Assembly: GCA_009746045.1 (NCBI GenBank)
Contig: RPFO01000156.1
Coordinates: 4,600,091-4,664,090 of the forward strand
Source of the DNA: Mesostigma viride
Lineage: Eukaryota; Streptophyta; Mesostigmatophyceae; Mesostigmatales; Mesostigmataceae
DNA length: 64,000 nucleotides
Reading direction: 5' to 3'
Positions 18,211 to 43,809 of the stretch are shown here, piece after piece (the first letter of the stretch is position 1; the number at the start of each line of letters is the position of its first letter). A model generated the notes under the pieces. The model had not been told where the DNA came from, did not search any database, and saw only the letters and a list, made by a program, of their open reading frames with translations. The translations under genes and the position numbers were made by a program.

Positions 18211-18336
18211 AGGGGATTCATAGGTGTTTGCTCAATTTCACAAGTCTTCAAATGAGTAAAAAAAAAATCTTTCAGATCTGAGGGTACCTAAAGCTGGACT
18301 GTTGCAGGCAGCATGTAGACCATGAAAATAGACCAC

Positions 18337-19426
18337 AGTTAGGTTAATATTGTGCGGAAACCTTTTTGCCACTTGGGCTACTCAGGTTCCGCACAATATT
18401 ACCGGCGATAACCACTCGCCGGACACTCAAGTTCACGACGTCGTGAACTTGAGTGTCCGGCGAGTGGTTATCGCCGGTAATATTGTGCGGAACCTGAGTA
18501 GCCCAAGTGGCAAAAAGGTTTCCGCACAATATTAACCTAACTAAAACCTAGCCTCTTGGGGCGAGGACGAATCACTAGGCTCGGAACACCCGTATGCATG
18601 AATATGATCGAATATAAGCATCTCGTTGGTGCAAATATCGATATGAATATGATCGAATATGAGCATCTCCTTGGTGCGCATATGATTAGAGCCGGGTGCC
18701 AAATCGGAACGAATTATTCCCCCAAATAATCCGCTTCCGAGTGGATTCGAACCTGCGCCCCGCAAGGAACCAGGTCTTAGTTAGGTTAATATTGTGCGGA
18801 AACCTTTTTGCCACTTGGGCTACTCAGGTTCCGCACAATATTACCGGCGATAACCACTCGCCGGACACTCAAGTTCACGACGTCGTGAACTTGAGTGTCC
18901 GGCGAGTGGTTATCGCCGGTAATATTGTGCGGAACCTGAGTAGCCCAAGTGGCAAAAAGGTTTCCGCACAATATTAACCTAACTAAGACCTGGATCCTTG
19001 CGGGGCGCAGGTTCGAATCCACTCGGAAGCGGATTATTTGGGGGAATAATTCGTTCCGATTTGGCACCCGGCTCTAATCATATGCGCACCAAGGAGATGC
19101 TCATATTCGATCATATTCATATCGATATTTGCACCAACGAGATGCTTATATTCGATCATATTCATGCATACGGGTGTTCCGAGCCTAGTGATTCGTCCTC
19201 GCCCCAAGAGGCTAGGTTTTAGTTAGGTTAATATTGTGCGGAAACCTTTTTGCCACTTGGGCTACTCAGGTTCCGCACAATATTACCGGCGATAACCACT
19301 CGCCGGACACTCAAGTTCACGACGTCGTGAACTTGAGTGTCCGGCGAGTGGTTATCGCCGGTAATATTGTGCGGAACCTGAGTAGCCCAAGTGGCAAAAA
19401 GGTTTCCGCACAATATTAACCTAACT
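18337..19426. mobile_element. 1,090-bp palindromic foldback element
   Basis: Three copies of a 206-bp palindrome (18337-18542, 18779-18984, 19221-19426) alternate with two 236-bp spacers (18543-18778 and 18985-19220) that are inverted copies of each other, so the whole is a palindrome centred at 18881/18882. Ends are AGTTAGGTTAATATT and its complement. The insertion split a satellite unit and duplicated ACCAC (18332-18336 and 19427-19431). The spacer carries GGTTCGAATCC, a perfect RNA polymerase III B-box/tRNA T-arm core, at 19010-19020 and mirrored at 18743-18753. The open frames inside are by-products of the symmetry. Confidence 0.85.
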
Positions 19427-19431
19427 ACCAC

Positions 19432-20963
19432 CCACGAAAATTGGGCTCATTCTGAGCTCAAATGGTGACATGTGACAGCATACATGTGCAGTTTTTCGTC
19501 ATTTTCCCCCTTTTCTTACATGAAACAAATATGAATAGTGAACAAATGAACTCATATCAGGCTGGATTCTTGCAGGCAGCATCTAGACCATGAAAATAGA
19601 CCACCCACAAAAATTGGGCTCATTCTGAGCTCAAATGGTGACATGTGACAGCATACATGTGCAGTTTTTCGTCATTTTCCCCCTTTTCTTACATGAAACA
19701 AATATGAATAGTGGACAAATGAACTCATTTCAGGCTGGATTCTTGCAGGCAGCATGTAGACCATGCAAATAGACCACCCACAAAAATTGGGCTCATTCTG
19801 AGCTCAAATGGTGACATGTGACAGCATACATGTGCAGTTTTTCGTCATTTTCCCCCTTTTCTTACATGAAACAAATATGAATAGTGGACAAATGAACTCA
19901 TTTCAGGCTGGATTCTTGCAGGCAGCATGTAGACCATGAAAATAGACCACCCACAAAAATTGGGCTCATTCTGAGCTCAAATGGTGACATGTGACAGCAT
20001 ACATGTGCATTTTTTCGTCATTTTCCCCCTTTTCTTACATGAAACAAATATGAATAGTGGACAAATGAACTCATTTCAGGCTGGATTCTTGCAGGCAGCA
20101 TCTAGACCATGAAAATAGACCACCCACAAAAATTGGGCTCATTCTGAGCTCAAATGGTGACATGTGACAGCATACATGTGCAGTTTTTCGTCATTTTCCC
20201 CCTTTTCTGACATGAAACAAATATGAATAGTGAACAAATGAACTCATTTCAGGCTGGATTCTTGCAAGCAGCATCTAGACCATGAAAATAGACCACCCAC
20301 AAAAATTGGGCTCATTCTGAGCTCAAATGGTGACATGTGACAGTGTAAATATGCAGCTTTTCGTCATTTGCACCGGTTTCTTACATGAAACTAATAGGAA
20401 TCATGACCAAATGAACTCATATCGAGCTGCCAGGATTCTTGCAAGCAACATTTAAACCATAATACTACACCACCTACAAAAATTGGGCTCATTATGAGCT
20501 CAAATGGTGACATGTGACAGTATAAATATGCAGTTTTACGCCATTTTCATCGTTTTCTTACACGAAATAAATAGGAATCATGACCAAATGAGCTCATATC
20601 GAGCTGGATTCTTGCAAGCTACATTTAAACCATAATACTAGACCACCTACAAAAATTGGGCTCATTATGAGCTCAAATGGTGACATGTGACAGTATAAAT
20701 ATGCAACCTTTTGTCATTTGCACCGGTTTCTTACATGAAACAAATAGGAATCATGAACCAATGAACTCATATCCAGCTGGATTCTTGCAAGCTACATTTA
20801 AACCATAATACTACACCACCTACAAAAATTGGGCTCATTATGAGCTCAAATGGTGACATGTGACAGTATGAATATGCAGTTTTACGCCATTTGCACCGGT
20901 TTCTTACATGAAACAAATAGGAATCATGACCAAATGAACTCATATCAAGCTGGATTCTTGCAA
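19432..20963 (+). repeat. 173-bp satellite array, element 1 left arm
   Basis: The TTGGGCTCAT landmark recurs at 19441, 19614, 19787, 19960, 20133, 20306, 20483, 20656 and 20829: a 173-bp period with one 177-bp unit. The outer five units are nearly identical; the inner four, next to the core, carry shared differences (AATAGGAATCATGA in place of AATATGAATAGTGG), so homogenisation is regional. One further outer unit is split by the palindrome. Confidence 0.92.
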
Positions 20964-21064
20964 GCTTAACATCCATGAAATATGCTCATTGTATAATGGT
21001 TTACGATTTATGAATGCAGGGGGGTCGCTACGCGAGTGACCAACAAGCACTCAAGTCAACAATA

Positions 21065-21590
21065 TGCCCAGAAAGAAGGCAGGGCCAGGTAAAGTAAAGG
21101 CTGGTCCTGAAAATGCACCCAGGGTGCCCACAACATGTCTACTACGTTACACCCTCGCTATCCTAGACCCTGCAGCCTGCCGGGGGGGGCACAAAATGTA
21201 ACTGGCAGCCAGGGACCATGGTGCAGGCCAAACAGCAGGTGTAAAGCTAGCTCAAAGCTAGCTCAGTCCAAAGAATGAAATAATAAGAAGCAAATACTTG
21301 GCAAGGTTAGGTCCATGATCGTTATTGGAGGCTTGGCTGCCACCACGGTGCTCGACAATGATGCTGAAGCCTTCAATTATATATAAAGCAGATACTGCAA
21401 AGAGGCACAAATAGCAATACAAGCACAATGTAAGCATGACAAGCTCAAGTTTCCAAGCCAGTCTAGCTCACTTGGACATGAGTTAAAGCGTTGGAAACAT
21501 ATGGGCAACATCCCAGCAGGCCTTGAAAAAGTTTTCAGCAACAAGGCAGTATATGTTTTAAATCAAACTACCACATTGCAATTCTAAGCA
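21065..21590 (+). other. Candidate spliced frame in the element core
   Basis: An ATG at about 21069 starts a basic peptide MPRKKAGPGKVKAGP. A separate ATG-less open stretch at about 21398-21586 reads KHDKLKFPSQSSSLGHELKRWKHM and LEKVFSNKAVYVLNQ, ending in a stop. Both are conserved in element 2 (38300-38820) apart from small indels. They could be exons of a core gene, but no unique splice path could be proved and no domain was recognised. Confidence 0.3.
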
Positions 21591-21710
21591 CAGTGACTTC
21601 TGCTTGCTGCTGTTTTGACGACACAAGGCCGTTTACCTTTTCAGTGACAACACGGGAAAAGAAAGCATTACCCAGCAAACTTCCTTTAAGTTCCCCGGAC
21701 ATAGGCGTAA

Positions 21711-22355
21711 TCACAACCACGACGTTGGGCATCGAAAAGAACCGGAATCATAAAGTCTGCGGGAGTTATAAGCTACGATACTCTTGACACGCTTATTTAG
21801 AACGACGCGGTTGCGGATGACATCCGGAACCTTGTTCTTGACGTGCGCCCAGGCCGCCAGCTGCGCGGAACAGCTCAAGAAATATATATTAAAGGACGGT
21901 GACGCCCGGGAAGCACCCAGCCTTGCGGCAAAAGTAAAATATGGCTCGCGCTCGCCGTGGTTTTCGCCAGGCGTGACTGCGATATCACGACGAAAAAATG
22001 GAGACTCTTTGACCCATCTAACTGCCCAGGTCCCTCTGTTGCCCGGGTCGCCCATTAGCCCAGAAGCGTACCATAACCCATACTCGCGATATCCGCAGCT
22101 ACTGGGCGGAAAAAGAAATTGTAAAACCGAACAGCATACTGACCTATCATGCCATCTACGTAGCTTCCAGAATTTCTTCACCGTTGCCAAAATCCGTTCA
22201 TGAACAATATTTTCGACGTACACAAAGCACCTGCACGTCAATCTCCCCTGACATTGGTTATCTGCCCCATCTTCATGATCTAACACGCAAACACCTAAAG
22301 TATTTGCATAACACAGGCGTTTTGCCCTCTGGTTCTCAGTTTCACTCATTGCCAT
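21711..22355 (-). CDS. Hypothetical core protein, 214 aa
   Basis: The longest frame in the core, identical in element 2 (38945-39589). It starts MAMSETENQRAKRLCYA; the middle contains GDPGNRGTWAVRWVKESPFF and the C-terminal half is basic (IRNRVVLNKRVKSIV). An in-frame 42-nt stretch with GTCAGT..CCGCCCAG ends could be an intron. A 139-codon frame lies antisense to it on the plus strand (21784-22203). Identity between the two elements shows recent common origin, not selection, so coding status is uncertain. No family recognised. Confidence 0.4.
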   Translation of the reverse strand: MAMSETENQRAKRLCYANTLGVCVLDHEDGADNQCQGRLTCRCFVYVENIVHERILATVKKFWKLRRWHDRSVCCSVLQFLFPPSSCGYREYGLWYASGLMGDPGNRGTWAVRWVKESPFFRRDIAVTPGENHGEREPYFTFAARLGASRASPSFNIYFLSCSAQLAAWAHVKNKVPDVIRNRVVLNKRVKSIVAYNSRRLYDSGSFRCPTSWL

Positions 22356-22593
22356 ATCATATTATGCAGGCACGTTTTGGTAAACAATCGCCGGCGACGT
22401 TGGTTTTGTTCGTGCGCGCACAAAGTAATTACCGGTAGTGCTTGGCAGGCTGTACGCACCTGCAGCCGCGCGCGCGCAAAGACGACGGTCACTGTGCTTT
22501 GTTCATTCAAATGCCATTTGCATGCGAGGCTCGGACAACACCGCGGACTGTTTGAATCAGAATTTTTTCACTTTTGGATGGTCCTTCGTTTCT

Positions 22594-23215
22594 CGCATGT
22601 TCAGCCCAGTTCAGGTTGTACGGTCAGTGTTGGGGGTCGGTGCATGGGTTCTCAATGGAATTCTCAATGGAATGCCGCAACAGCCCATTTTCATTGAGAA
22701 TGCAAGTCCTTTTCGCATGTTCAGCCCAGTTCAGGCTGTACGGTCAGTGTTGGGGGTCGGTGAATGGGTTCTCAATGGAATTCTCAATGGAATGCCGCAA
22801 CAGCCCATTTTCATTGAGAATGCAAGACCTTTTTGCATGTTCAGCCCAGTTCAGGCTGTACGGTCAGTGTTGGGGGTCGTTGAATGAGTTCTCAATGGAA
22901 TTCTCAATGGAATGCCGCAACAGCCCATTTTCATTGAGAATGCAAGTCCTTTTCGCATGTTCAGCCCAGTTCAGGCTGTACGGTCAGTGTTGGGGGTCGG
23001 TGAATGAGTTCTCAATGGAATTCTCAATGGAATGCCGCAACAGCCCATTTTCATTGAGAATGCAAGTCCTTTTCGCATGTTCAGCCCAATTCAGGCTGTA
23101 CGGTCAGTGTTGGGGGTCGGTGAATGAGTTCTGAATGGAATTCTCAATGGAATGCCGTTACAGCCCATTTTCATTGAGAATGCAAGACCTTTTCGTATGT
23201 TCTGGCTGTACGGTC
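22594..23215 (+). repeat. 120-bp coding-type minisatellite
   Basis: Five to six tandem 120-bp units containing TTCTCAATGGAATTCTCAAT. Because 120 is a multiple of three, two plus frames stay open through the array and give different 40-residue repeats: one with VLNGILNGMPQQPIFIENA, the other with FSMEFSMECRNSPFSLRM. Element 2 has one more unit (39828-40565). Confidence 0.85.
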
Positions 23216-23405
23216 AGTGTTGGGGGTCGGTGAATGAATTCTGCATGAATGGAACTTTCATACGCCGCGCTGAGTCGGTGGAAGATCGAGCCACAAAAGA
23301 GGCAGGAGAGGCATCATTGGGAGAGGCGTGCCAACCCCGAGCGAGACGATGGTGAATTCGATCAAATTGGCTGATTGCAATAATTTTGCGGAGCTAGAAT
23401 AATCG

Positions 23406-23690
23406 CTCGTGACGGCCTTTAGTAAGGAGCACGACATGGCCCATCTGCTATACTCCGATGGCGACGATGAAATAGTGGGATTTGATGAGGTGCAGGCTGC
23501 GCTTTGCGCATGCCCCGGTGTGCAGTTGCCAAATCTTCCACCTGCGAGCATTGCGCGAGGGAAGGCGGACATTACTGAGTGCATTCGCAAGCAGGTCGCC
23601 CAGCGTTCCACGGCAATGAAGCAAGCCAAGGCCACCCCGCGCCACAAGCGCCGGCCTCCCATCATTCCTGATTCAGACTCTGATGACTAG
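23406..23690 (+). pseudogene. C-terminal remnant of core gene (internal deletion copy)
   Basis: Encodes the last ~93 residues of the frame at 41722-42405 in element 2: a VTAFSKEHDMAHLLYSDGDD segment, a basic stretch and an acidic SDSDD end. Relative to element 2, about 1,360 bp immediately upstream (40764-42123) is missing, so the N-terminal part is gone. Confidence 0.7.
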
Positions 23691-23939
23691 CCTTGCCGCA
23701 TGTGGCTTTTAATTTTTCATGGCTGCCCTACCTTCTCGGTGCATGCTTTGCGGCTAGCAGCCTTGTGATCAACACATTCCGTGTCTTATGACCTTGGTTC
23801 ATAGGTTTATTACATGTCCTTACAATTGGTAGAACATATATCAAATGGGATAAAACCATATTTGGGTGAACAGGTTTCATGGCTCATGGCTCATCTATTT
23901 TTTTTCAATGGGATATGACGTAAAAGCTGGCAATGTGCA

Positions 23940-25862
23940 TTTTCTAAATGCTGCCTGCAAGAATCCAACTTGATATGAGTTCATTTGTTCACTATTCATA
24001 TTTGTTTCATGTAAGTTAACCGAGAAAATGACGAAAAACTGCAAATGTATGCTGTCACATGTCACCATTTGAGCTCAGAATGAGCCCAATTTTTGTGGGT
24101 GGTCTATTTTCATGGTCTAGATGCTGCCTGCAAGAATCCAGCCTGAAATGAGTTCATTTGTTCACTATTCATATTTGTTTCATGTAAGAAAAGGGGGAAA
24201 ATGACGAAAAACTGCACATGTATGCTGTCACATGTCACCATTTGAGCTCAAAATGAGCCCAATTTTCGTGGGTGGTCTATTTTCATGGTATAAATGCTGC
24301 CTGCAAGAATCCAGCCTGATATGAGTTCATTTGTTCACTATTCATATTTGTTTCATGTAAGAAAAGGGGGAAAATGACGAAAAACTGCACATGTATGCTG
24401 TCACATGTCACCATTTGAGCTCAGAATGAGCCCAATTTTCGTGGGTGGTCTATTTTCATGGTATAAATGCTGCCTGCAAGAATCCAGCCTGAAATGAGTT
24501 CATTTGTCCACTATTCATATTTGTTGCATGTAAGAAAAGGGGGAAAATGACGAAAAACTGCACATGTATGCTGATCACATGTATGCTGTCACATGTCACC
24601 ATTTGAGCTCAGAATGAGCCCAATTTTTGTGGGTGGTCTATTTTCATGGTCTACATGCTGCCTGCAAGAATCCAGCCTGATATGAGTTCATTTGTCCACT
24701 ATTCATATTTGTTTCATGTAAGAAAAGGGGGAAAATGACGAAAAACTGCACATGTATGCGGTCAAATGTCACCATTTGAGCTCAGAATGAGCCCAATTTT
24801 TGTGGGTGGTCTATTTTCATGGTCTAGATGCTGCCTGCAAGAACCCAGCCTGATATGAGTTCATTTGTTCACTGTTCATATTTGTTTCATGTAAGAAAAG
24901 GGGGAAAATGACGAAAAACTGCACATGTATGCTGTCACATGTCACCATTTGAGCTCAGAATGAGCCCAATTTTTGTGGGTGGTCTATTTTCATGGTCTAG
25001 ATGCTGCCTGCAAGAATCCAGCCTGATATGAGTTCATTTGTTCACTATTCATATTTGTTTCATGTAAGAAAAGGGGGAAAATGACGAAAAACTGCACATG
25101 TATGCGGTCAAATGTCACCATTTGAGCTCAGAATGAGCCCAATTTTTGAGGGAGGTCTATTTTCATGGTCTAGATGCTGCCTGCAAGAACCCAGCCTGAT
25201 ATGAGTTCATTTGTTCACTGTTCATATTTGTTTCATGTAAGAAAAGGGGGAAAATGACGAAAAACTGCACATGTATGCTGTCACATGTCACCATTTGAGC
25301 TCAGAATGAGCCCAATTTTTGTGGGTGGTCTATTTTCATGGTCTAGATGCTGCCTGCAAGAATCCAGCCTGATATGAGTTCATTTGTTCACTATTCATAT
25401 TTGTTGCATGTAAGAAAAGGGGGAAAATGACGAAAAACTGCACATGTATGCGGTCACATGTCACCATTTGAGCTCAGAATGAGCCCAATTTTTGTGGGTG
25501 GTCTATTTTCATGGTATAGATGCTGCCTGCAAGAACCCAGCCTGATACGAGTTCATTTGTTCACTGTTCATATTTGTTTCATGTAAGAAAAGGGGGGAAA
25601 TGACGAAAAACTGCACATGTATGCTGTCACATGTCACCATTTGAGCTCAGAATGAGCCCAATTTTTGTGGGTGGTCTATTTTCATGGTATAAATGCTGCC
25701 TGCAAGAATCCAGCCTGATATGAGTTCATTTGTTCACTATTCATATTTGTTTCATGTAAGAAAAGGGGGAAAATGACGAAAAACTGCACATGTATGCTGT
25801 CACATGTCACCATTTGAGCTCAGAATGAGCCCAATTTTTGTGGGTGGTCTATTTTCATGGTC
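23940..25862 (-). repeat. 173-bp satellite array, element 1 right arm
   Basis: Eleven units, inverted relative to the left arm. The fourth carries a ~15-bp duplication of the CACATGTATGCT segment. Pairs of neighbouring units share private variants (GGTCAAATG; GAACCCAGCC), a sign of recent duplication of two-unit blocks. Confidence 0.92.
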
Positions 25863-26361
25863 TGAAGGCTGGATGACCCCTGCTTTATTGACAAATATAA
25901 GGATTTAATCACATGTGGAAAAATTGAGTAAAATTTATGAAATTGAGCAAACACTTATGAATCCCCTCAAGGCTGTGCAGCAGTACCCTCTGCTCCGTGG
26001 GCTCATGGGCCCCATTGATTAATTAATTGCATGGAAACATAACTCCGTTGGGAGTATCTGTAGCACATATCCCTGAGTGAGAATGATGCCCATGCAAGCA
26101 CGCCGAGCTATGGATGCCGAGAATGCTCATAACTTTTGATTCCGGGCATGAAATTTGGTCGGGTAAATTGCTACAGACTCGCTTTTTGATGACGAACACG
26201 CTGATCTAATTTTTGGCAGCCATCGCCAAGGATTTCGAAAGTTATCGCCGGCGGCCTGCCCAGCAGATATCGCTATTTTTCTGCACGATTATGGCGGCAC
26301 CACGCACGTGAGCCGTGCGCCTGCGCCCCCTGCCATCGTCTAGGTGCTATTAAACGTAGCC

Positions 26362-27537
26362 ATGGAGGCCCCCGCATCGTCTTCAGCTCTTGCTGCCGAG
26401 TCTCTCGAGGACAAACTTGCTGCAAACAAAATCGCCACCGACATTGCCGCGGCCAAGAAAGCCGCTAACAAGCGCACCAAGACTTCGGCAGCGACTTCGG
26501 AAGCAACGCCGATAGCGGTTGAAACCTCCTTGCCGGACTCCATTTCTTCCTCATTCTACATGCCAGACGCACGTTTGAGCCTGGACGACATCGCTGCCTT
26601 CCTTGGCTTCAGCGACGCCGAGGTGCGACGCGTGCTGCAGCTCCGCTACGAACACAACGCCCCGATTCGCCACCCTCGCACCGGCCAGGTTATGGACGCT
26701 CCTTCGGATACCATTGATGCTTTGGAGCCCAAGGATTGCCGTCTTGCATGTCTTATTTCGTGCTGCTCTGAACTTGTCGAGCTGCCGGCGACACCCATCG
26801 CCAGGCCAGCCCCCGCGCCCGACACTACCGTGCCGCTGCAGGACCTCGCACAGTCTTTTACGACCGTGCAGGGCGACATTAAGGTCCTGAAGGAGACGAT
26901 GCTGGAGCTGAAGAAAGCCATGGCAGCCCCTGCCAAAACTACCACGTTTGCCGATGTCACCGGCAAGCAATTGACCACCATCGTTCAACAGGCGGCCAAG
27001 TCTGCAGCTACCGCTGCGGTCACCCAGAATGAAGTGCAGCAACGCCAACGCAATATGGTAATCAAAGGCTTCCAGAAAGGCGCGGCAGCACAGGAGACAG
27101 CACACTCACTTGCCGAGGAGCTGCGCGGCCCAGCGTTTCTGGGGAAGCTGCAGCTCCAGAACCGTGTTGCCATTGAACGTGCCATTCGGCTGCCAGGCCC
27201 TCTGGGCCTGGTCGTCGTCACCATGGCCTCCATGCACGACAAACGCCTCGTGCTGGGAGCACGTCGTCTGCTCCAACGCGGTGACTTCAGCCTCGACGAG
27301 GACTACACGACGGCTCAACTGAAGGCGAGGAGCGCGGTGTGGAACAGCACCATCGTCCAGGAGACCAAGAAGCAAGAGACCAAGGGTAAGCGCATTAAGT
27401 TGCGTCTGCTTCAGGATGGCTCCTTTGCAGCATTCTTTGATGGGCACAGGATTACAGGTGTTCCGATTAACACCCCCGGAGCGGAGTCTCGTCAGGCGTC
27501 TAGCCAGAAGGGTGCTGCCTCTGTTGGTAGACAGTAG
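26362..27537 (+). CDS. LINE ORF1 protein (RNA-binding, gag-like)
   Basis: An intact 391-residue frame from the first ATG (MEAPASSS); a GTG six codons upstream is less likely to be the start. The N-terminus is Ala/Lys-rich; a DDIAAFLGFSDAEVRRVLQL helix follows; a coiled-coil-like segment with LKETMLELKKAM lies near residue 195. Then comes an RRM-like domain (RQRNMVIKGF, later LGLVVVTMASMHDKRLVLGA) and a C-terminal domain with LDEDYTTAQLKARSAVW and FFDGHRI. This order (coiled coil, RRM, CTD) is that of L1-type ORF1 proteins, which coat the element RNA. The assignment rests on motif order, without a search. Confidence 0.72.
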   Translation: MEAPASSSALAAESLEDKLAANKIATDIAAAKKAANKRTKTSAATSEATPIAVETSLPDSISSSFYMPDARLSLDDIAAFLGFSDAEVRRVLQLRYEHNAPIRHPRTGQVMDAPSDTIDALEPKDCRLACLISCCSELVELPATPIARPAPAPDTTVPLQDLAQSFTTVQGDIKVLKETMLELKKAMAAPAKTTTFADVTGKQLTTIVQQAAKSAATAAVTQNEVQQRQRNMVIKGFQKGAAAQETAHSLAEELRGPAFLGKLQLQNRVAIERAIRLPGPLGLVVVTMASMHDKRLVLGARRLLQRGDFSLDEDYTTAQLKARSAVWNSTIVQETKKQETKGKRIKLRLLQDGSFAAFFDGHRITGVPINTPGAESRQASSQKGAASVGRQ

Positions 27538-27611
27538 GTAGACAACCTTCCTCGTCGGCTCGCGGCTAACAGGCTTCGGGGACAGCCTCTAAATAGTCCC
27601 GTTCCACTACC

Positions 27612-30600
27612 ATGCATCGACCTAACAGTCGACTGAGACACATGGTGGTGCCGGTATCTCGGGCCAGAACGACAGCTCTCAGCAGCAAGATTAGCAACAC
27701 CCAACGCATGCTAGATTTCCTACGCCTCTGCGTTGCGCAAGCATCCCCGAATACCCAGAGCAGGCGGCAGGCTCGCATCCTACGCCTGCAGGACAAAATA
27801 AATGCGATGAAAAGCACTATTTCCACCGCTTCCCTTCCCCCCTCCGTTCCACCCCCACCTCCATTCCCCGCCGCACCCACCCCCATCACCCATCGTCGTT
27901 CTCCCCTGGTGGGCCAGCAGGCATCCTTGGCCCTTGCCACTTTTAACACCCGCACATTGCTAGATGACGACCATAGCTGCCGGATCGAGGAGCTAGTCGC
28001 ATTTTGCATTGAGCATCGTGTATCTATATTAGGCGTCCAGGAACACCGCCGCACGGTGCCACTTGGCCTGGTGAGCACTGCTCGCTTGGCGGGTGGCTGG
28101 CGGTTTTACTTCGCTGGCAGCGGTACGTCTGGCCAAGGTGGTGTTGGTCTTTTGTGTTCGCCGCTGGCAGTTGCTAGCCTCAGCACGCTTAAGTTTCTAA
28201 CCCCACGCCTTATGGTAGCACATTTCACCTCTGTCGAGGGGCGGTCTAAACACCACCTCACGGTGGGGGTGGGCTACGCACCCCACAGTGGTCTACCTGA
28301 TTCGGCCCGTGAGGAGTTCTTCGAATCTTTGCATGACCTTGAGAGGGTCACTCCGGCCCGCCACTTTTTGGTTATGCTGCTCGACGCCAATGCCACGCTC
28401 CCCGTGGGCACTGCTGGCAGTCGCTTTGCGCCTGCTGACACGGAAGCTAACGCCAATACTCCCCTTTTCTCTGCCTTTTTGCGGGATAGCGGGATGGTTG
28501 CTGTCAACTGTCAATTCCAACGTCCCTCACAGGACTTGGTCACTTTTCGTGGCCCTAACGGCCGTCAGGCCTGTCTGGACTATGTGGTGGTACGGCAGCC
28601 CAGGTGTACCTCGGTTCTGGACGCCCGAGTGTTTGACACGCCCACGGTGTGCTCTGACCACCGGTTGGTGCGCGCGACCCTTCGGCTCCGGTTCCACGTC
28701 CCCACGCGCCGCGCCCAGTGGTCCGCCCTGACTGGTCTGCTCTACGTCCGGTCAAGGGAGATCCTGAGGACTGGACGGACGCCGAGCACGAGCGGAACTG
28801 GTGCCGACGGAAGTACCTGTCGGCACTGGACGCCCGGGCGGACGTCGACAAGCTGGACAATGGTGCCCCCAACGCAGCCATTTTTGCGGGCTTTGCGGCC
28901 CGTGCCCCGTTGCTGGCGGCCCGGCACCTGCCGGTCATGCCCCGCCGCCGCCCCGGCCCGCTCTACCGCCAGGACCCCAAGGTCTTGGCCGCCCGGCACC
29001 GCCTCAAGCGTAACCGGGACCCGCTGCAGAAACCATCGCTCAAGGCCGCCCTTGTGGAGGCCTACGCGCACGCTCAGGACGCGGAGGCGGCCCAGTGCAT
29101 CGCGGATGCCAAGGCCTGCCAGGCCGCAACCAGGGCAAGGACATGTGGTACCACCTCGACCGGCTCGGCGGCCGGCGGCAGCGCACCCCGGTGGAGCATA
29201 CGGGGGACGGCACGGCGCCGGTAAGCCTTGACCGCTGGTTGGCCCACAATGTTTCCTTGACCGGTGGGGCTCGCGCCCCCCCCCGCCGCTGCACCCCGAG
29301 ACGGCCGCCCGCCTCGGGGTCGCCGGACCCCCGCCGCCACCGGCGCCCCCCTCCTCGGCCGCGGACTACCAAGTCCCCGCCTTGCAGGAGGGCCGCCTTG
29401 CCACTGACGACGTTGTCCCCCCTTCACTTTGGAGGAATTGGACGGCGCCCTTGCTCGCCTGCGGTACGATGCAGCGGTCGGTGCCGACCACCTTTCTGCT
29501 GAGCTGCTGAAGACCCCTGATCTGGCGGTTAGGGATCTTCTGCTGGCGTTCTGCAACCGTGTCCTGCTCTCTGACGAGCCTCCGCCTGCTGAGTGGCAGA
29601 CGGCCATCCGCGTCATGCTGTACAAGAAGGGCTCTGCTGCTGACCCCGGCAACTACCGGGGTGTCTGCCTCCAGAGCGCCGCGCTGAAGGTCTTCATGCG
29701 CATGATGCTGCACAGGCTCCGCGCCGCGCTGGACCCACACCTGGGTGAGTCTCAGATGGGTTTCCGTAGTGGTCGTAACACTGTCATGGCTGTGTTTGTC
29801 GCGCGCCGGTTGATGGAGGAGGTGCGTCGACTTCCCCCTGACAGTTTGCCGCTGGTCTTCATTTTTGTTGACTATATCAAGGCCTTTGACACGGTTCTCT
29901 GGGAGGCTCTTTGGGCCATCCTAGCTCTGGATCGGGTACCACCTGCGTTTATTGCTGCCATTCGCCGACTGTATGAGGGCTCACAGGCAGTAGTGCGGAC
30001 TGCGGAGGGCACCACTCCACCATTCCCCCTTCACCACGGGGTGTGGCAAGGTTGTGTCCTGTCCCCATACCTGTTCATTATTGTCGTGGATCACGTCATG
30101 CGCCGGGCACGTGCGCGCTTTACTGCTCTTAAGGGGTTCGAGCCAGGCTTGGACATCCTTAACGTGAAAGAGCACGGCGGGGTTAGACCGGGGTACCGCC
30201 TTGCCGACCTGATTTATGCGGATGATACCACCCTCATCGAGAGCCCCGAGCACATTCAGACCTGGCTGGACTGCCTGGGCCTGGAGGCGCGGGCGGTGGG
30301 GTTGGAGATTAGTGTCAAGACTGAGGCGATGGTGATAGGGGCCTCCAGTAAACCACCGCTGCCGCGCCTGCTCGACGGGACGGAGGTCCCGTTCCGCGAC
30401 CGCTTCAAGCTGTTGGGGAGCTGGCTTCCTGACACCGACGACGATGTGGACACCCGCATCGCCCTCGCCTGGGCCAAGCTCCGTTCGCTCACACCTTACT
30501 GGCGCTCGAAGGGCCTGGACGGGCACCGCAAACGCATGCTCTTCAAGGTCCTCGTCCTCACGGTGCTCACGTATGGCGCCGAGGCGTGGACCCTCCCACC

Positions 30601-31078
30601 CAAACTGGCAGCTCGGCTCGACGGCACAGTTTACAGGATGCTCCGGCAGGTCCTTAACGTAGGTTTTTCCGAGCGTCCGTCATCAGAGTCTTTGTATCAT
30701 GGCATGCCTCGTGTTTCGGACGAGATTAGGCAGCGTAGGATAGCATTTGTAGGACACCTTGCCCGCACTAGCCAGGTCGACACCACCCTTGGTCTGGCCG
30801 GCCCCCAGCGGCTTGGCCAGCCAGGGCGGCATATTCTGACCTGGCCTGGCCCCGCGGACATTCCCAAAAGGGTAGGGAAACCTGTCACCAACTACGTTCA
30901 GATGTTGCTGGACGACCTAGTGGTCCCAGCCCAGTTTGAGCACCGCATACACTCTCTCTCCCGTCTTTGGACTGTCATGCAGGACAAGACGCGGTGGAAG
31001 AAGATTGTCAAGGCGCACACGCCCGACCCTGTGGGCAAGCCACCTCCCCCCAAGCGGAGGAGGCGTTTTGATGAGTAG
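27612..31078 (+). pseudogene. LINE ORF2: APE endonuclease and reverse transcriptase, frameshifted
   Basis: The endonuclease keeps its core motifs: ATFNTRTL, GVQEHR, MLLDANAT, the T-F-RG..CLDYVV segment and SDHRLV. The RT keeps GFRSGRNT, FVDYIKAFDTVLW, GVWQGCVLSPYLF, catalytic LIYADDTTLI (YADD at 30215-30226) and the LTYGAEAWTL thumb. Breaks: a frame change near 28735, and single-base losses relative to copy B near 29127, in a C homopolymer at 29275-29284, and near 29415. The RT frame 29429-31078 is open to the stop. All three compared breaks are one-base deletions, two of them in or next to C runs, so assembly error is possible. Confidence 0.85.
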
Positions 31079-31266
31079 TGTAGTTAGGATTTTCTAGATA
31101 GCCTAGCGTTAGTATAGTTCGACCACGCGGCTTCCTCCACCCCATCCATCATGGAATATGTGCTACATGACCTCCCCACGGAGGCATGTTATAATTTAAT
31201 TTAATTTTTTTTTAATATCCCTGAGAAGGGGCATATGGCCTGTAATACATTCTGGGCTACTTCCTG

Positions 31267-34570: not shown

Positions 34571-35678
34571 GGTGGGGTGCTAGGGAGACCAACGCCTTGC
34601 TCTGGGTTGGGATGTGTCCCAGTGGGCTGGGTAGCCAGAAATGGCTGACAGCAGGTTCTTCAGGGTTAGGTGCACCCTGCATGCTGAACAGGGGTCAGCC
34701 GGTGGAAGTCACTTCCCCTGGCTGAGAATAACGCCTGGCCCTGTCATGGGGTTGCAGAAGGGCAGACCTTGTAACCGGCCTTGGGTCTAGTCACTGATGC
34801 ATGGACCCTGAAAGGGCAGCCCAAGTGTTGGCTCCTACATGCAGGTTGCTGTACACTTGTACATATTCTCTGTATAACCATTCAAACCTGTTGCATGCTA
34901 TAATAAACCCTGGTTGTGTGACCATGCATGTTGGACGTACGTAGTTGCCGGCAGCCCGGGGGCCTCATTATGGGTTATACTCTCTTTATATTAATAAACA
35001 ATAATCATGTTTATATCTCCATTTCCTGTTTGTTTGTAATGTACAGTTCCAGGATCTGTTCCAAACCTGGAGGATACGGGGTGGGGTTCGATTCCCCAGC
35101 TCAGACCACAGCCTGCATGGCATGCATGTATGATTCCTGAGATTATCCCTCAGTGAGGACATGGGCTTCCCAGGTTGGCAAGCACTTTAACTGGGCTCTA
35201 TCCATGTCTGTTGAATGCAAAGGAAGGGGATAGGACGTGGTGGCGGGCGCCATAAACAGGCGCCTGTGATAACTGGGAAAGACCAGGAACTCACAATAAT
35301 ACGTTTCATGACATCCTCTGTCCAAGTTCAGCTCGCTGGATGTAGAGACCTCACTATAAATCTTCACCAGGTTCCCGCCAAAAGAAAGGGTTGGGGGCTG
35401 ACATGTGGGTCAGGGTTAAGCCTTGGAACCAATGTTGGCTCTGCATGGACTAATCTTTGGGTACAATTTGTGTAATGCCTCAAGTTCCAAATTATACGAA
35501 AGGGCAGGCCTGGTCTCTGGGAGAGATCAGGAGTCTGTGGCATGAGTGGGTCTGGCTGAATGGGATCTCAGTCTGGTCCAGCCTCCAAAACAAGAAAGGG
35601 TTGGAGTTATGTAGCATAAATATTGGGACACCAATGTGCTAGTTGGATGCAGGGTGAGGAGACCTTTCTAACGCCGTG
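34571..35678 (+). other. Copia pol end and downstream host sequence
   Basis: The pol frame ends near 34648 (GPHGGVLGRP..VARNG then stop). Downstream are a TATAACC box-like motif (about 34873) and AATAAACCC (about 34902), which would fit a 3' LTR or a terminator, but no TG..CA boundaries were proved. From 35612 the sequence joins the long dispersed repeat and is cut by element 2 at 35679. Confidence 0.4.
35083..35097 (+). other. tRNA T-arm-like sequence
   Basis: GGGGTTCGATTCCCC forms a perfect 5-bp T stem and 5-nt loop core, followed by AGCTCAGACCA, a plausible acceptor end. No pairing 5' acceptor strand (CTGAGCT) is visible upstream, so this is at best a 3' tRNA half or a tRNA-derived retroposon relic. 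Confidence 0.3.
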
Positions 35679-35787
35679 AGGGGATTCATAAGTGTTTGCT
35701 CAATTTCATAAATTTTACTCAATTTTTCCACATGTGATTAAATCCTTATATTTGTCAATAAAGCAGGGGTCATCCAGCCTTCAGACC

Positions 35788-36640
35788 ATGAAAATAGACC
35801 ACCCACAAAAATTGGGCTCATTCTGAGCTCAAATGGTGACATGTGACAGCATACATGTGCAGTTTTTCGTCATTTTCACCCTTTTCTTACATGAAACAAA
35901 TATGAACAGTGGACAAATGAACTCATATCAGGCTGGATTCTTGCAGGCAGCATTTATACCATGAAAATAGACCACCCACAAAAAATTGGGCTCATTCTGA
36001 GCTCAAATGGTGACATGTGACAGCATACATGTGCAGTTTTTCGTCATTTTCCCCCTTTTCTTACATGAAACAAATATGAACAGTGGACAAATGAACTCAT
36101 ATCAGGCTGGGTTCTTGCAGGCAGCATCTAGACCATGAAAATAGACCACCCACAAAAATTGGGCTCATTCTGAGCTCAAATGGTGACATGTGACAGCATA
36201 CATGTGCAGTTTTTCGTCATTTTCACCTTTTTCTTACATGAAACAAATATGAACAGCACTTGAACAAATGAACTCATTTCAGGCTGGATTCTTGCAGGCA
36301 GCATCTAGACCATCAAAATAGACCACCCACAAAAATTGGGCTCATTCTGAGCTCAAATGGTGACACGTGACAGCATACATGTGCAGTTTTTTGTCATTTT
36401 CTCGGTTATCTTACATGAAACAAATATGAATATTGAACAAATGAACTCAGATCAGGCTGGAAACTTGTAAGCAGCATGTAGACCATCAAAATAGACTGTT
36501 TACAGCTCAAAAGGTGACAAATGAAAGGAAAACAATGCAGTTTGATGCCATTGCCACTGTTCTCTTGAATAAAACATTTTTGTGCGACCAAATGAACTCG
36601 ATCGATCATGTCAGGCTGGAAACTTGCAAGCATCAACTGA
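35788..36640 (+). repeat. 173-bp satellite array, element 2 left arm
   Basis: Four good units plus a degenerate fifth and sixth (36400-36640). Same orientation as the element 1 left array but fewer units. The innermost units are the most diverged. Confidence 0.88.
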
Positions 36641-36849
36641 ATCATGAAACTTCATGATTCAATCTGAGATGAAATGGGATGGCACAAGAGCAACCCAGGC
36701 CATCGACAGACGACAAGGCACATGTCTCGGCTGCCAGTGGCACGCCACGTACTCTTTCAGTCCAGCATGAATATACAATAAGTACTAAGACATCACCTTC
36801 TACTAGAAGCACTGGCTCACTTAATAATACATCAGAAACTAGTATAAGC

Positions 36850-37507
36850 TTAGCTGGTAAACCAGTCATTGCTAATAGTCCAGTCATTGGAGAAGTTTGG
36901 CCACTGCTGCAATGGGCGGCCGACACCATAGTTGGGCGGAGCTGACACGGATGATGGCATCCACGTGGTCACCGGGCGCCATCGTGGCACGGGCGTCGTG
37001 TTCCCAGACATGGCCAGTGTCGCAATTGAGTTGAGCGCAGCCACCGCCACAGAGACCGTGCCAGAGAAGGGATCAATGGATGGGAGCCGGCGTCCACCAA
37101 CCTGCACACCACCACCCAGCACATCAAGCCAGCATGCCTTAGGGCACGGTATATGAAGGAATAATCAACAAACCAAACAAATATATCCTATATACTCCAA
37201 CAAACTATTCACAAAGGCAGATTATGTTGATTCAAAGAAATCACAATAGGAAAGGACATACCTGGGGAAGTTGCATATGAGCCAGCATTTGCTGCACTTG
37301 CGCGAGGGGCGCTACTTCGGCGTCCCCGTCAATTACTCGTGTAGTCGTTGTAGCGGCAGGGAGTGGGAGGCGATAGTGTTGCTGTTGTTGCAGCAGCTGC
37401 TGCGGATGCTGCTGCTGTCTAATCACCAAGAAAATGTCCTCATGTGAGGACATTTTCAACCCTTGGATGGTGTCTAACTCGTTCCTAAAAGTAGTTACCA
37501 GTTGCAC
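36850..37507 (-). CDS. Two-exon hypothetical gene in element 2
   Basis: Exon a reads from about 37507 (RNELDTIQGLKMSSHEDIF, a Gln-rich stretch, LAQVQQMLAHMQLPQ) to a GTATGT donor at about 37261. Exon b follows a GTGTGCAG acceptor at about 37098 and runs to a stop at 36850 (VGGRRLPSIDPFSGTVSVAV.. ending SNDWFTS). Both junctions are phase 0 and the joined frame is about 165 residues. A CTTTTAG just upstream of RNELD may be a further acceptor, so more exons may lie upstream. Absent from element 1. No family recognised. Confidence 0.45.
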
Positions 37508-37519
37508 TTTGCACTATAA

Positions 37520-38010
37520 AGTCCACAAACCAACCTAATAACAATTTTGCCATCCATATTGGGACCAAAGCACACACATATATTGAGTTACTTGGGGGTC
37601 ATGTTGCCGTGGTCATGTTGCAATGTCCTATGGGTACATTTTAAGGACCCCCCCCAGGGGGATCCGCTGGGTGCGAGACATGATACACCTAAAATGTATG
37701 CTGTCAGGTTTAAACAACTTTATTGGACCTGGTCTTGGAAAGGCAGTGAAATTGGTAGCCATGCATGGCTTCTGAACACTCACATCACTGGACGTCACAA
37801 GGACCCAGCTGTACTATCTAAAAATAACTGGAAGATGACAAGCTAAAAATGAGTGGCAGCTGTGCACCAGGGTACCCCCCTGTACTGTAACCGTTAATTA
37901 GTCCCTGCAAACTTGGTCTGAACATAGTGATGTCCGGTATCAGGGTGTACTACACATCTAGCTCTAGCAGCATGCAGACCTAAAAATATCACGGAAATAT
38001 CTACTGGCAT
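37520..38010. repeat. Dispersed repeat inside element 2
   Basis: 37520-37850 matches 11300-10970 inverted, and 37880-38010 matches 8640-8860 inverted (ATATTTCCGTGATATTTTTAG, then a CTAGATGTGTA block). The two matches correspond to the two ends of the 8.6-11.3 kb block, so this may be the internally deleted form of one element. Confidence 0.5.
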
Positions 38011-38944
38011 TCGCGCCAGCTCGGTTCTAAAACTGGTTACGATTTGTAGTTACGAGTAAAACTGGTAACTAGAAATAGGTACCAGTACCATCCAAATTAA
38101 TTAAGCATGGATACCATTTGTAATAACTCACACATTTTAACATATCCATGGGTACGGCATGGAAACATGTTCATGTATGATGTGTTCAAGAGTAGCAATG
38201 CTTAACATCCATGAAATATGCTCATTGTATAATGGTTTACGATTTATGAATGCAGGGGGGTCGCTACGCGAGTGACCAACAAGCACTCAAGTCAACAATA
38301 TGCCCAGAAAGAAGGCAGGGCCAGGTAAAGTAAAGGCTGGTCCTGAAAATGCACCCAGGGTGCCCACAACATGTCTACGTTACACCCTCGCTATCCTAGA
38401 CCCTGCAGCCTGCCGGGGGGGGGCACAAAATGTAACTGGCAGCCAGGGACCATGGTGCAGGCCAAATAGCAGGTGTAAAGCTAGCTCAAAGCTAGCTCAG
38501 TCCAAAGAATGAAATAATAAGAAGCAAATACTTGGCAAGGTTAGGTCCATGATCGTTATTGGAGGCTTGGCTGCCACCACGGTGCTCGACAATGATGCTG
38601 AAGCCTTCAATTATATATAAAGCAGATACTGCAAAGAGGCACAAATAGCAATACAAGCACAATGTAAGCATGACAAGCTCAAGTTTCCAAGCCAGTCTAG
38701 CTCACTTGGACATGAGTTAAAGCGTTGGAAACATATGGGCAACATCCCAGCAGGCCTTGAAAAAGTTTTCAGCAACAAGGCAGTATATGTGTTAAATCAA
38801 ACTACCACATTGCAATTCTAAGCACAGTGACTTCTGCTTGCTGCTGTTTTGACGACACAAGGCCGTTTACCTTTTCAGTGACAACACGGGAAAAGAAAGC
38901 ATTACCCAGCAAACTTCCTTTAAGTTCCCCGGACATAGGCGTAA

Positions 38945-39589
38945 TCACAACCACGACGTTGGGCATCGAAAAGAACCGGAATCATAAAGTCTGCGGGAGT
39001 TATAAGCTACGATACTCTTGACACGCTTATTTAGAACGACGCGGTTGCGGATGACATCCGGAACCTTGTTCTTGACGTGCGCCCAGGCCGCCAGCTGCGC
39101 GGAACAGCTCAAGAAATATATATTAAAGGACGGTGACGCCCGGGAAGCACCCAGCCTTGCGGCAAAAGTAAAATATGGCTCGCGCTCGCCGTGGTTTTCG
39201 CCAGGCGTGACTGCGATATCACGACGAAAAAATGGAGACTCTTTGACCCATCTAACTGCCCAGGTCCCTCTGTTGCCCGGGTCGCCCATTAGCCCAGAAG
39301 CGTACCATAACCCATACTCGCGATATCCGCAGCTACTGGGCGGAAAAAGAAATTGTAAAACCGAACAGCATACTGACCTATCATGCCATCTACGTAGCTT
39401 CCAGAATTTCTTCACCGTTGCCAAAATCCGTTCATGAACAATATTTTCGACGTACACAAAGCACCTGCACGTCAATCTCCCCTGACATTGGTTATCTGCC
39501 CCATCTTCATGATCTAACACGCAAACACCTAAAGTATTTGCATAACACAGGCGTTTTGCCCTCTGGTTCTCAGTTTCACTCATTGCCAT
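38945..39589 (-). CDS. Hypothetical core protein, 214 aa (element 2 copy)
   Basis: Identical in translation to the element 1 frame at 21711-22355. See that entry for visible segments and the possible 42-nt intron. Confidence 0.4.
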   Translation of the reverse strand: MAMSETENQRAKRLCYANTLGVCVLDHEDGADNQCQGRLTCRCFVYVENIVHERILATVKKFWKLRRWHDRSVCCSVLQFLFPPSSCGYREYGLWYASGLMGDPGNRGTWAVRWVKESPFFRRDIAVTPGENHGEREPYFTFAARLGASRASPSFNIYFLSCSAQLAAWAHVKNKVPDVIRNRVVLNKRVKSIVAYNSRRLYDSGSFRCPTSWL

Positions 39590-39827
39590 ATCATATTATG
39601 CAGGCACGTTTTGGTAAACAATCGCCGGCGACGTTGGTTTTGTTCGTGCGCGCACAAAGTAATTACCGGTAGTGCTTGGCAGGCTGTACGCACCTGCAGC
39701 CGCGCGCGCGCAAAGACGACGGTCACTGTGCTTTGTTCATTCAAATGCCATTTGCATGCGAGGCTCGGACAACACCGCGGACTGTTTGAATCAGAATTTT
39801 TTCACTTTTGGATGGTCCTTCGTTTCT

Positions 39828-40565
39828 CGCATGTTCAGCCCAGTTCAGGTTGTACGGTCAGTGTTGGGGGTCGGTGCATGGGTTCTCAATGGAATTCTCA
39901 ATGGAATGCCGCAACAGCCCATTTTCATTGAGAATGCAAGTCCTTTTCGCATGTTCAGCCCAGTTCAGGCTGTACGGTCAGTGTTGGGGGTCGGTGAATG
40001 GGTTCTCAATGGAATTCTCAATGGAATGCCGCAACAGCCCATTTTCATTGAGAATGCAAGACCTTTTTGCATGTTCAGCCCAGTTCAGGCTGTACGGTCA
40101 GTGTTGGGGGTCGGTGAATGGGTTCTCAATGGAATTCTCAATGGAATGCCGCAACAGCCCATTTTCATTGAGAATGCAAGTCCTTTTCGCATGTTCAGCC
40201 CAGTTCAGGCTGTACGGTCAGTGTTGGGGGTCGTTGAATGAGTTCTCAATGGAATTCTCAATGGAATGCCGCAACAGCCCATTTTCATTGAGAATGCAAG
40301 TCCTTTTCGCATGTTCAGCCCAGTTCAGGCTGTACGGTCAGTGTTGGGGGTCGGTGAATGAGTTCTCAATGGAATTCTCAATGGAATGCCGCAACAGCCC
40401 ATTTTCATTGAGAATGCAAGTCCTTTTCGCATGTTCAGCCCAATTCAGGCTGTACGGTCAGTGTTGGGGGTCGGTGAATGAGTTCTGAATGGAATTCTCA
40501 ATGGAATGCCGTTACAGCCCATTTTCATTGAGAATGCAAGACCTTTTCGTATGTTCTGGCTGTAC
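39828..40565 (+). repeat. 120-bp minisatellite, element 2
   Basis: Six to seven units of the same 120-bp repeat as at 22594-23215. The third unit (TCGGTGAATGGG variant) is the extra copy relative to element 1, consistent with gain or loss of a single repeat unit. Confidence 0.85.
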
Positions 40566-40770
40566 GGTCAGTGTTGGGGGTCGGTGAATGAATTCTGCAT
40601 GAATGGAACTTTCATACGCCGCGCTGAGTCGGTGGAAGATCGAGCCACAAAAGAGGCAGGAGAGGCATCATTGGGAGAGGCGTGCCAACCCCGAGCGAGA
40701 CGATGGTGAATTCGATCAAATTGGCTGATTGCAATAATTTTGCGGAGCTAGAATAATCGCTCGCGAGAGC

Positions 40771-42405
40771 TGCCATGGGCGGTCGTGAAGGTTCAGACTA
40801 TTTGAGGCGCCGTGACGAATATGGTGGGGGGCGCTGGAATTGGATGTCGTTGGACATTGAAGAAGTCGACCCTTGACCCCTGGGCCCCCTGTTTTAGCCG
40901 CAGGGGATGAGGCAGCTTGCTGGCGAACGTTCGTCGGCGTTTTGGTGTTGCTGAGCCTCTTACGTCCCGACCACCATGGGCCCGTGTCGTACAAGGGGAC
41001 GGAATTTATGCCCAGGCAGTGTCGATTCCCCACGAGGCATACAAGGGCGTAGTAGACGGTGATGACTTGCAGGTCGACCATCTCGATATCAGTGATGACG
41101 ATGATGATCTAGATGGTGGGTGCCGTGAGGCTCGCACAACAGGATTAAAATCGTCTGCCTCGACAGTATTGAAATACGCTACAAATGCCGACGTGATCGC
41201 GGCAGTCGGAGTTGCAGCGCGGTCGGTGTTGTAAACGCCGATGCATCCAAGATCCCGAGAAAGCCCTGTCGTCGTTTGTAATCTGGGAGGCCGCCATTGC
41301 ATTGGCGCAGCAAATATTGGGCCAACTACACTGTAGAGCGGAAATCCAGGCGCTGCGGCGACCCAATCAGAGCGGAGCAGGCCCGAGTGCCACCACTGAC
41401 CTGGATGCGGAAACGCGTCTAGCATTGGAGGGTGCTCGTTGCTTCGTGCCGCTGGTTGACCCCGTTGTCCACGCGGGGCGGCCCGCTAGCCCTGAGCACT
41501 GTGCGACGCGCAGAGGATGCAGCGGTCGCGCTAAAGCAAGCATCCGCTGCAGCATGGGAGGGCATCGAGGACGTGGGGAAGCCGATGATGTGTCAACATC
41601 CGGGGCTAAAGGACAGCTGCGATCTTCTGTGCAGCCCCCTAATGCCTTTCACTCCTTTGCTGTACGTGGTGGCCCGCAACATCACCGGCGACTTATCGCC
41701 AGACGCCGTGGTTGAACTTGAGTGCTACGGCTCGCACTCGTACACAACGCGGTTTTCGCCCTTCAGCCCGAGCTCGGCCCATTTCCCCCTGCCCGCCGCC
41801 ACAAGGACAGGTACCCACACATTTTCAGTGAAGGCAAGCACAATCGTCTTGTCTTCGTGGCGTGCGGGGGGGGCAAGGTGCGCCGGGTGGGCTTGACAAG
41901 CAGTGGCACATTGACGCAGCACACGAAGGATGCTGTTGTTGGGCTCTCGCTCGACTGGATTCAGTGGGATGGGTACGGAACCCCGGCGATGGCGGAGAAG
42001 ACGGCGGTGGGACTTTTCAAATCGCGTGTCATGGACGTGCCAGAGCCGGAATGGTTGGTGGGGACCCTGGTATGCAAGATATTTTCGGGCCCCAACTCGG
42101 GGGAGAAGCGGTATCATGGCCATGTGACGGCCTTTAGTAAGGAGCACGACATGGCCCATCTGCTATACTCCGATGGCGACGATGAAATAGTGGGATTTGA
42201 TGAGGTGCAGGCTGCGCTTTGCGCATGCCCCGGTGTGCAGTTGCCAAATCTTCCACCTGCGAGCATTGCGCGAGGGAAGGCGGACATTACTGAGTGCATT
42301 CGCAAGCAGGTCGCCCAGCGTTCCACGGCAATGAAGCAAGCCAAGGCCACCCCGCGCCACAAGCGCCGGCCTCCCATCATTCCTGATTCAGACTCTGATG
42401 ACTAG
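40771..42405 (+). pseudogene. Core gene with Tudor-like C-terminal domain, frame-broken
   Basis: Collinear open pieces switch frames: MGGREGSDYLRRRDEY (40771), an acidic ISDDDDDLDGG piece (40917-41231), DPEKALSSFVIWEAAIALAQQ (about 41245-41470), EDAAVALKQASAAAWEGIEDVG (about 41512-41740), and the last frame 41722-42405. The last contains WLVGTLVCKIFSG..KRYHGHVTAFS..HLLYSDGDDEIVGFDEV, the layout of a Tudor/chromo-barrel-like module (V-G..V.K.F.G...G.V..............Y.DGD.E), then a basic KATPRHKRRPP and acidic tail. It could be spliced or frameshifted. It may be a targeting protein of the element, but no catalytic domain is visible. Confidence 0.45.
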
Positions 42406-42664
42406 CCTTGCCGCATGTGGCTTTTAATTTTTCATGGCTGCCCTACCTTCTCGGTGCATGCTTTGCGGCTAGCAGCCTTGTGATCAACACATTCCGTGTC
42501 TTATGACCTTGGTTCATAGGTTTATTACATGTCCTTACAATTGGTAGAACATATATCAAATGGGATAAAACCATATTTGGGTGAACAGGTTTCATGGCTC
42601 ATGGCTCATCTATTTTTTTTCAATGGGATATGACGTAAAAGCTGGCAATGTGCATTTTCTAAAT

Positions 42665-43725
42665 GCTGCCTGCAAGAATCCAACTTGATATGAGTTCATT
42701 TGTTCACTATTCATATTTGTTTCATGTAAGTTAACCGAGAAAATGACGAAAAACTGCACATGTATGCTGTCACATGTCACCATTTGAGCTCAGAATGAGC
42801 CCAATTTTTGTGGGTGGTCTATTTTCATGGTCTAGATGCTGCCTGCAAGAATCCAGCCTGAAATGAGTTCATTTGTTCACTATTCATATTTGTTTCATGT
42901 AAGAAAAGGGGGAAAATGACGAAAAACTGCACATGTATGCTGTCACATGTCACCATTTGAGCTCAGAATGAGCCCAATTTTCGTGGGTGGTCTATTTTCA
43001 TGGTATAAATGCTGCCTGCAAGAATCCAGCCTGATATGAGTTCATTTGTTCACTATTCATATTTGTTTCATGTAAGAAAAGGGGGAAAATGACGAAAAAC
43101 TGCACATGTATGCTGTCACATGTCACCATTTGAGCTCAGAATGAGCCCAATTTTCGTGGGTGGTCTATTTTCATGGTATAAATGCTGCCTGCAAGAATCC
43201 AGCCTGAAATGAGTTCATTTGTCCACTATTCATATTTGTTGCATGTAAGAAAAGGGGGAAAATGACGAAAAACTGCACATGTATGCTGTCACATGTCACC
43301 ATTTGAGCTCAGAATGAGCCCAATTTTTGTGGGTGGTCTATTTTCATGGTCTACATGCTGCCTGCAAGAATCCAGCCTGATATGAGTTCATTTGTCCACT
43401 ATTCATATTTGTTGCATGTAAGAAAAGGGGGAAAATGACGAAAAACTGCACATGTATGCTGTCACATGTCACCATTTGAGCTCAGAATGAGCCCAATTTT
43501 TGTGGGTGGTCTATTTTCATGGTCTACATGCTGCCTGCAACAGTCCAGCCTGAAATGAGTTCATTTGTCCACTATTCATATTTGTTTCATGTAAGAAAAG
43601 GGGGAAAATGACGAAAAACTGCACATGTATGCTGTCACATGTCACCATTTGAGCTCAGAATGAGCCCAATTTTCGTGGGTGGTCTATTTTCATGGTCTAC
43701 ATGCTGCCTGCAACAGTCCAGCTTT
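42665..43725 (-). repeat. 173-bp satellite array, element 2 right arm
   Basis: Six units in minus orientation. The inner end, next to the core, is identical to the inner end of the element 1 right array; the outer end leads to the type X terminus. Confidence 0.9.
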
Positions 43726-43809
43726 AGGTACCCTCAGATCTGAAAGATTTTATTTTTACTCATTTGAAGACTTGTGAAATTGAGCAAACACCTATGAATC
43801 CCCTCCGTG

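Follow-up and report, generated by a model that had tools for sequence, protein, structure and literature searches.

Opposite linkage of tips and core in two foldback-like elements of Mesostigma viride points to exchange between inverted 173-bp repeat arrays

How can two near-identical copies of a mobile element come to carry the same core in opposite orientations relative to their ends? The question is raised by E1 (positions 18211-25967) and E2 (35679-43804), two near-identical elements with a common 11-bp terminus, whose ends lie 9.7 kb apart in the window, i.e., the whole stretch of 64,000 nucleotides analysed here. In both elements, the core is flanked by inverted arrays of a 173-bp repeat (Table 1). 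The order is X-core-Y in E1 and Y-core-X in E2, X and Y being the two types of tip, and the cores lie on one strand; therefore, with respect to the ends, one of the two cores is inverted. We consider it probable, judging from the sequence, that E1 and E2 are copies of an apparently non-autonomous, foldback-like DNA transposon, and that one intra-element exchange between the inverted arms flipped the core, likelier in E1 than in E2.

The two types of tip are reliably distinguishable because their identity reaches past the shared terminus. The X tips of E1 and E2 agree at 125 of 126 positions and the Y tips at all 115, whereas X and Y tips agree at 80 or 81 of 106 aligned bases, with gaps, in the three pairings compared, and this likeness is concentrated in the first ~33 bp. 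A mix-up of X and Y is thus ruled out. The terminus itself, AGGGGATTCAT, was matched four times with up to one mismatch permitted, each match being exact (18211 and 35679 on the forward strand, 25957 and 43794 on the reverse strand); as at least four such matches occurred in 7 of 100 shuffles, the count alone is not rare. The cores align plus/plus, 20967-23250 with 38203-40495 and 23409-23942 with 42124-42657. The alignments of tips and cores thus confirm two claims of the original prediction, namely, that X and Y can be separated by the sequence inside the shared terminus and that the two elements, with co-directional cores, have opposite tip-core linkage.

Table 1. Features of the two elements, E1 and E2 (positions in the window)
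Feature	Position	Strand	Remarks
E1 target-site duplication	left GAAGG 18206..18210, right CAAGG 25968-25972	+ (left)	4/5 alike
E1 left tip, X type	18211..18336	+	begins AGGGGATTCATAGGTG; continues into first partial satellite unit; 125/126 versus E2 X tip
E1 palindrome, 1090 bp	18337..19426	.	near-perfect, inserted in X arm; 1088/1090 positions self-complementary; no spacer
E1 left 173-bp array	19427..20965	+	units 1-5 type A; unit 6 A turning into B; units 7-9 type B, adjoining core
E1 core	20966..23942	+	by alignment to E2; lacks 1361 bp of E2 core at 23408/23409
E1 right 173-bp array, inverted	23943..25852	-	collinear with E2 from core edge to ~24713, then diverges; Y-arm markers in some units
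Putative exchange interval	24697..24760	.	unit 7 of E1 right array, counted from Y; placed by hand from unit markers
E1 right tip, Y type	25853..25967	-	115/115 versus E2 Y tip
E2 target-site duplication	left CCGTG 35674..35678, right CCGTG 43805-43809	+ (left)	5/5, perfect
E2 left tip, Y type	35679..35793	+	by tip comparison
E2 left 173-bp array	35794..36496	+	4 units, innermost an edge variant
Diverged unit after E2 left array	36499-36649		64-68% alike
E2-only segment, ~1.55 kb	36650..38201	+	between left array and shared core; missing from E1
E2 core	38202..42657	+	same strand as E1 core; contains 120-bp tandem repeat and Tudor-like ORF
E2 right 173-bp array, inverted	42658..43678	-	6 units, X arm
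E2 right tip, X type	43679..43804	-	by tip comparison

Both E1 and E2 look like insertions. For E2, the predicted perfect CCGTG duplication was recovered, and the joined flanks, with one copy of the duplication kept, match 13150-13847 at 87.8% (~59 bp of this match lies left of the junction) and 13853-14172 at 72.3%, unbroken across the junction in both cases; these alignments identify a related, empty copy of the E2 target within the window. The evidence for E1, which had been said to restore a copia frame, is weaker: its joined flanks read NPADALTKLEEK up to the junction and AVQQYPLLRGLMGPID, closed by a stop, beyond it, an open, copia-like C-terminal reading that is consistent with a restored copia end without proving it, the copia label being taken from the look of the translation and not from a family search. 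If E1 had undergone one crossover with E2, or either of them with a distant copy, the outer flanks would have been swapped; this possibility is disfavoured because the outer duplications are matched, perfectly in E2 and at 4 of 5 positions in E1, and was set aside.

The cores of the two elements have hardly diverged. With the 120-bp repeat left out of the computation, substitutions between E1 and E2 amount to 2 in 1616, 0 in 166, and 0 in 534 aligned bases (2/2316 in total), and there are one 3-bp and one 1-bp indel. Given this very low divergence, the differences in arrangement would be recent, unless conversion between the copies homogenised the cores; as part of the explanation that we favour, E1 and E2 are probably young copies of one element. 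At the join of the core deletion in E1 there is a 1-bp overlap. The 120-bp tandem repeat is about one unit longer in E2 (6.5 units at 39827-40596) than in E1 (5.5 units at 22593-23242), and parts of the segment found only in E2 resemble the region at 8.7-11.4 kb of the window (72-74%). An ORF at 41722-42405 in the E2 core matches a PTM/DIR17-like Tudor domain weakly, below the threshold (E 0.00047 when scanned alone), and is possibly a captured piece of a host gene; E1 retains only its end.

The arms of the two elements are 0.7-1.9 kb long, and the two arms of an element are exactly identical over 231 bp at most in E1 and over 113 bp at most in E2. Two types of repeat unit can be recognised, type-B units differing from type A at 19-28 positions per unit; type B was found only beside the left edge of the E1 core (~20290-20965). 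At this edge, four type-B units, the outermost of which is mixed, are joined to TTAACATCC with a 2-3 bp overlap, whereas the left edge of the E2 core is preceded by the edge unit, the diverged unit, and then the 1.55-kb segment, such that the core-adjacent left arms of E1 and E2 differ in kind. Clearly, the arrays of these copies have been reshuffled. The unlike left arms, the core deletion and the palindrome in E1, and the segment confined to E2 go beyond the original prediction. The palindrome in the X arm of E1 is flanked by ACCAC on either side (18332-18336 and 19427-19431) and looks like a separate foldback-type insertion; it contains three copies of a palindromic block of ~206 bp starting with AGTTAGGTTAATATTG. 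Each of its arms has a stretch that we take to be reminiscent of a tRNA B box, and ARAGORN found no tRNA in the whole window.

The right array of E1 indicates where the core may have changed its partners. Over the 771 bp of array that adjoin the right core edge, 2 substitutions and one 15-bp indel separate E1 from E2; near 24.7 kb, divergence sets in abruptly, and the 309 bp that follow contain 14 substitutions. The best changepoint falls at 24714; when the substitutions were re-dealt uniformly 5000 times, its likelihood ratio was never reached. In terms of units, right units 8-11 of E1 pair one-for-one with right units 3-6 of E2; this pairing, with 3 differences overall, is the best among the 56 four-unit runs compared. 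Unit 7 is a composite that shares markers with X-arm unit 2 of E2 in its inner part and with Y-arm units 3 and 5 of E1 in its outer part. Such an abrupt switch within a 173-bp array is the mark that an exchange inside the arrays would be expected to leave.

The kinship of the units suggests which of the two arrangements is the older one. Of the 10 Y-linked type-A units, 6 carry the marker GAACAG, which is absent from all 16 X-linked or core-right type-A units (Fisher p 0.0009, uncorrected for shared descent, with the grouping chosen after the units had been viewed and the 4 type-B units left out), and Y-arm markers of this type occur solely on the Y side of the switch. For every one of X-arm units 1-5 of E1 (5/5), the nearest unit of E2 is an X unit, and X-arm unit 1 of E1 shows no difference from core-right unit 9 of the same element. 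From these unit kinships, markers, and the collinear stretch, the X arm appears to have once been attached to the right core edge, as it is in E2, which suggests that E1 is the derived copy. The marker split is not clean, however, since units 1, 3, 5, and 7 among Y-arm units 1-7 of E1 have their closest match among the X units of E2, and, read inward from the tips, matching arms are free of differences for just ~109 (X) and ~95 (Y) array bases. The left junction yielded no collinear array signal between E1 and E2. A reciprocal exchange between the arrays of E1 is possible: the A-to-B switch on the left and the switch on the right overlap in register, but by a few columns only, and one further marker in unit 7 opposes this overlap.

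Collectively, these observations lead us to propose that the terminal arms, as inverted arrays of a 173-bp repeat, supplied the homology (231 bp exact in E1) for an exchange that took place within one element, between its two arms, on the lineage leading to one copy, more likely E1, and that would have re-joined the core to the opposite tips. Two routes may be envisaged. A reciprocal crossover between the arms would yield a clean inversion of the core. Alternatively, gap repair after excision or breakage would copy from a sister copy, and a jump of the template from arm to arm, with an end-joined finish, could produce an inverted core together with deletions and odd junctions. The second route fits at least as well as the first because E1 has both a core deletion and an odd left junction, and we lean slightly towards it. 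We infer that a single event was responsible and that E1 is derived; with the cores so little diverged, one complex event is an attractive reading of the several rearrangements, and it is possible that they arose from independent deletions. The original prediction of recombination between the inverted arrays within one element is supported as far as the place of the exchange is concerned, the switch lying in the right array and the outer flanks being matched, but support for its simplest form, a clean reciprocal crossover, is incomplete, given that E1 and E2 have dissimilar junctions at the left core edge and that E1 bears a core deletion as in aborted gap repair. Most likely, the flip is a neutral by-product, and the tips would stay usable by a transposase supplied from elsewhere.

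Among the alternatives, misassembly, in which reads from the inverted arrays would have been assigned to the wrong arm, leaving one core misoriented only on paper, is unlikely. The arms are indeed inverted repeats, the cores are near-identical over kilobases, and a misjoin would likewise place the switch inside an array. However, the window is free of Ns and of ambiguous bases, arms of this length with such short exact identity would be easily spanned by long reads, and the private structures of both elements were resolved in the assembly. Rather unlikely, too, are two independent one-sided changes, by which each tip of one element would have been overwritten from another copy, through template switching or gene conversion, without any inversion. 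The type-B units in the left arm of E1, which require another source or an older history, the short-overlap junction in that element, and the reshuffling of the arrays are all in keeping with such replacements. Yet this would require both ends to change separately, Y giving way to X at one of them and X to Y at the second, with tips still 99-100% intact, a result that a single exchange achieves at once, and neither of the two copies is of the X-X or Y-Y kind.

A bolder extension of the exchange between arms, which we regard as quite improbable, is that satellite-built arms make the element invertible, with the core flipping so often that copies ~0.1% apart in their cores differ in orientation, and both orientations may coexist at a locus. 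Ongoing or programmed isomerisation, with the arrays acting as an inversion switch and both orientations coexisting at single loci, is very unlikely, and the likeness to inverted-repeat replicons drawn in the original prediction was not borne out: the flip falls within a core divergence that looks recent unless conversion homogenised the cores, but each of the two loci presents one state, and nothing points to a programmed switch because Pfam searches of the E2 core in all six reading frames found no recombinase domain, although split or unfamiliar genes could escape them. We retain a single homology-directed exchange between the arms of one element as the probable origin of the opposite linkage.

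To which class do these elements belong? Their long terminal inverted repeats consist largely of tandem repeats, in the form of the inverted 173-bp arrays beside both cores, and they generated target-site duplications (5/5 in E2, with the related empty site, and 4/5 in E1), as is characteristic of foldback-like transposons. In six frames of E2 36650-42660, Pfam (E up to 1) recognised neither a transposase nor a recombinase, although a gene with introns or a disrupted frame could have been missed. The matches that it did return, to a Tudor-like domain (0.0074), Sushi (0.012), and the CP2 transcription factor (8.2e-05), are all below the curated cut-offs, and for Sushi and CP2 no stretch passed alone. 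The 5-bp CCGTG of E2 differs from the 3-bp TTA/TAA duplication of PIF/Harbinger elements, the DDE transposase of which was likewise not detected by Pfam in E2 36650-42660, as might hold for any non-autonomous copy. Mutator elements produce duplications of 8-11 bp, and the 5 bp of E1 and E2 do not fit a duplication of the Mutator or Tetris type. A P-type transposase with a THAP domain, as in Galileo, was also not found by Pfam in this region, which for a possibly non-autonomous copy speaks neither for nor against Galileo. Finally, polymerase and integrase genes, as a Polinton would carry, were not found by Pfam in the six-frame search of the E2 core, although E1 and E2 might be gutted derivatives; this class was considered solely because the ends read AG...CT and the duplication is short.

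The surroundings contain other repeats and genes. Two LINE-like copies in opposite orientation (29106-31207 and 45783-47882) are 93.6% alike, the LINE reading being based on a reverse transcriptase match in the first copy, the only one scanned. An open frame at 50075-53683 carries a CCT motif (E 3.2e-16), which hints at the green lineage and is the best marker of the host observed in the window. DIRS-like frames in the window, labelled from the look of their translations, received no support from Pfam. Rfam gave no match at the gathering threshold in 18000-44500, and searches of viral contigs with exact tip and satellite patterns, in a collection that may omit records from the genome of the window itself, revealed no further copies.

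Repeat-built arms are known from other transposons. Galileo of Drosophila mojavensis resembles E1 and E2 in that its arms are built of repeats, but it belongs to the P superfamily by its transposase, and the available part of the report describes arm expansion and chimeras and not inversion of the core relative to the tips (PMC3573991). Tetris, a foldback element of Drosophila virilis, resembles them in being apparently non-autonomous, with tandem repeats in its terminal inverted repeats; these repeats, of ~220 bp, also form satellite arrays. Unlike E1 and E2, it makes duplications of 8-10 bp, and core inversion is not described in the accessible portion of that paper (PMC4079207).

A close counterpart is MtPH-A6-4 of Medicago truncatula, a PIF/Harbinger element with subterminal 60-bp tandem repeats, some copies of which have them in opposite orientation at the two ends (PMC2213677). 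Inversions of its internal region were reported, with this region described as inverted in one copy and the elements MtPH-A6-4-XIV and Ia compared, and the authors judged abortive gap repair triggered from the repeats to be probable (PMC2213677). The repeats of MtPH-A6-4 are 60 rather than 173 bp long, its duplication is the 3-bp TTA/TAA rather than 5 bp, and it has transposase-bearing relatives in its genome (PMC2213677), whereas no transposase was found in E2 36650-42660. What it shares with them is the combination of repeat-bearing ends in opposite orientation with an inverted internal region. Among the papers found, this kind of event has one clear precedent (PMC2213677). E1 and E2 most likely represent a clean new case of a core flipped by recombination between arrays, and a seemingly recent example, with the switch mapped inside an array, of repeat-built ends rearranging the element between them. 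Core orientation is, accordingly, an unsafe marker for classifying such elements, and more copies of the family could separate a crossover from gap repair.
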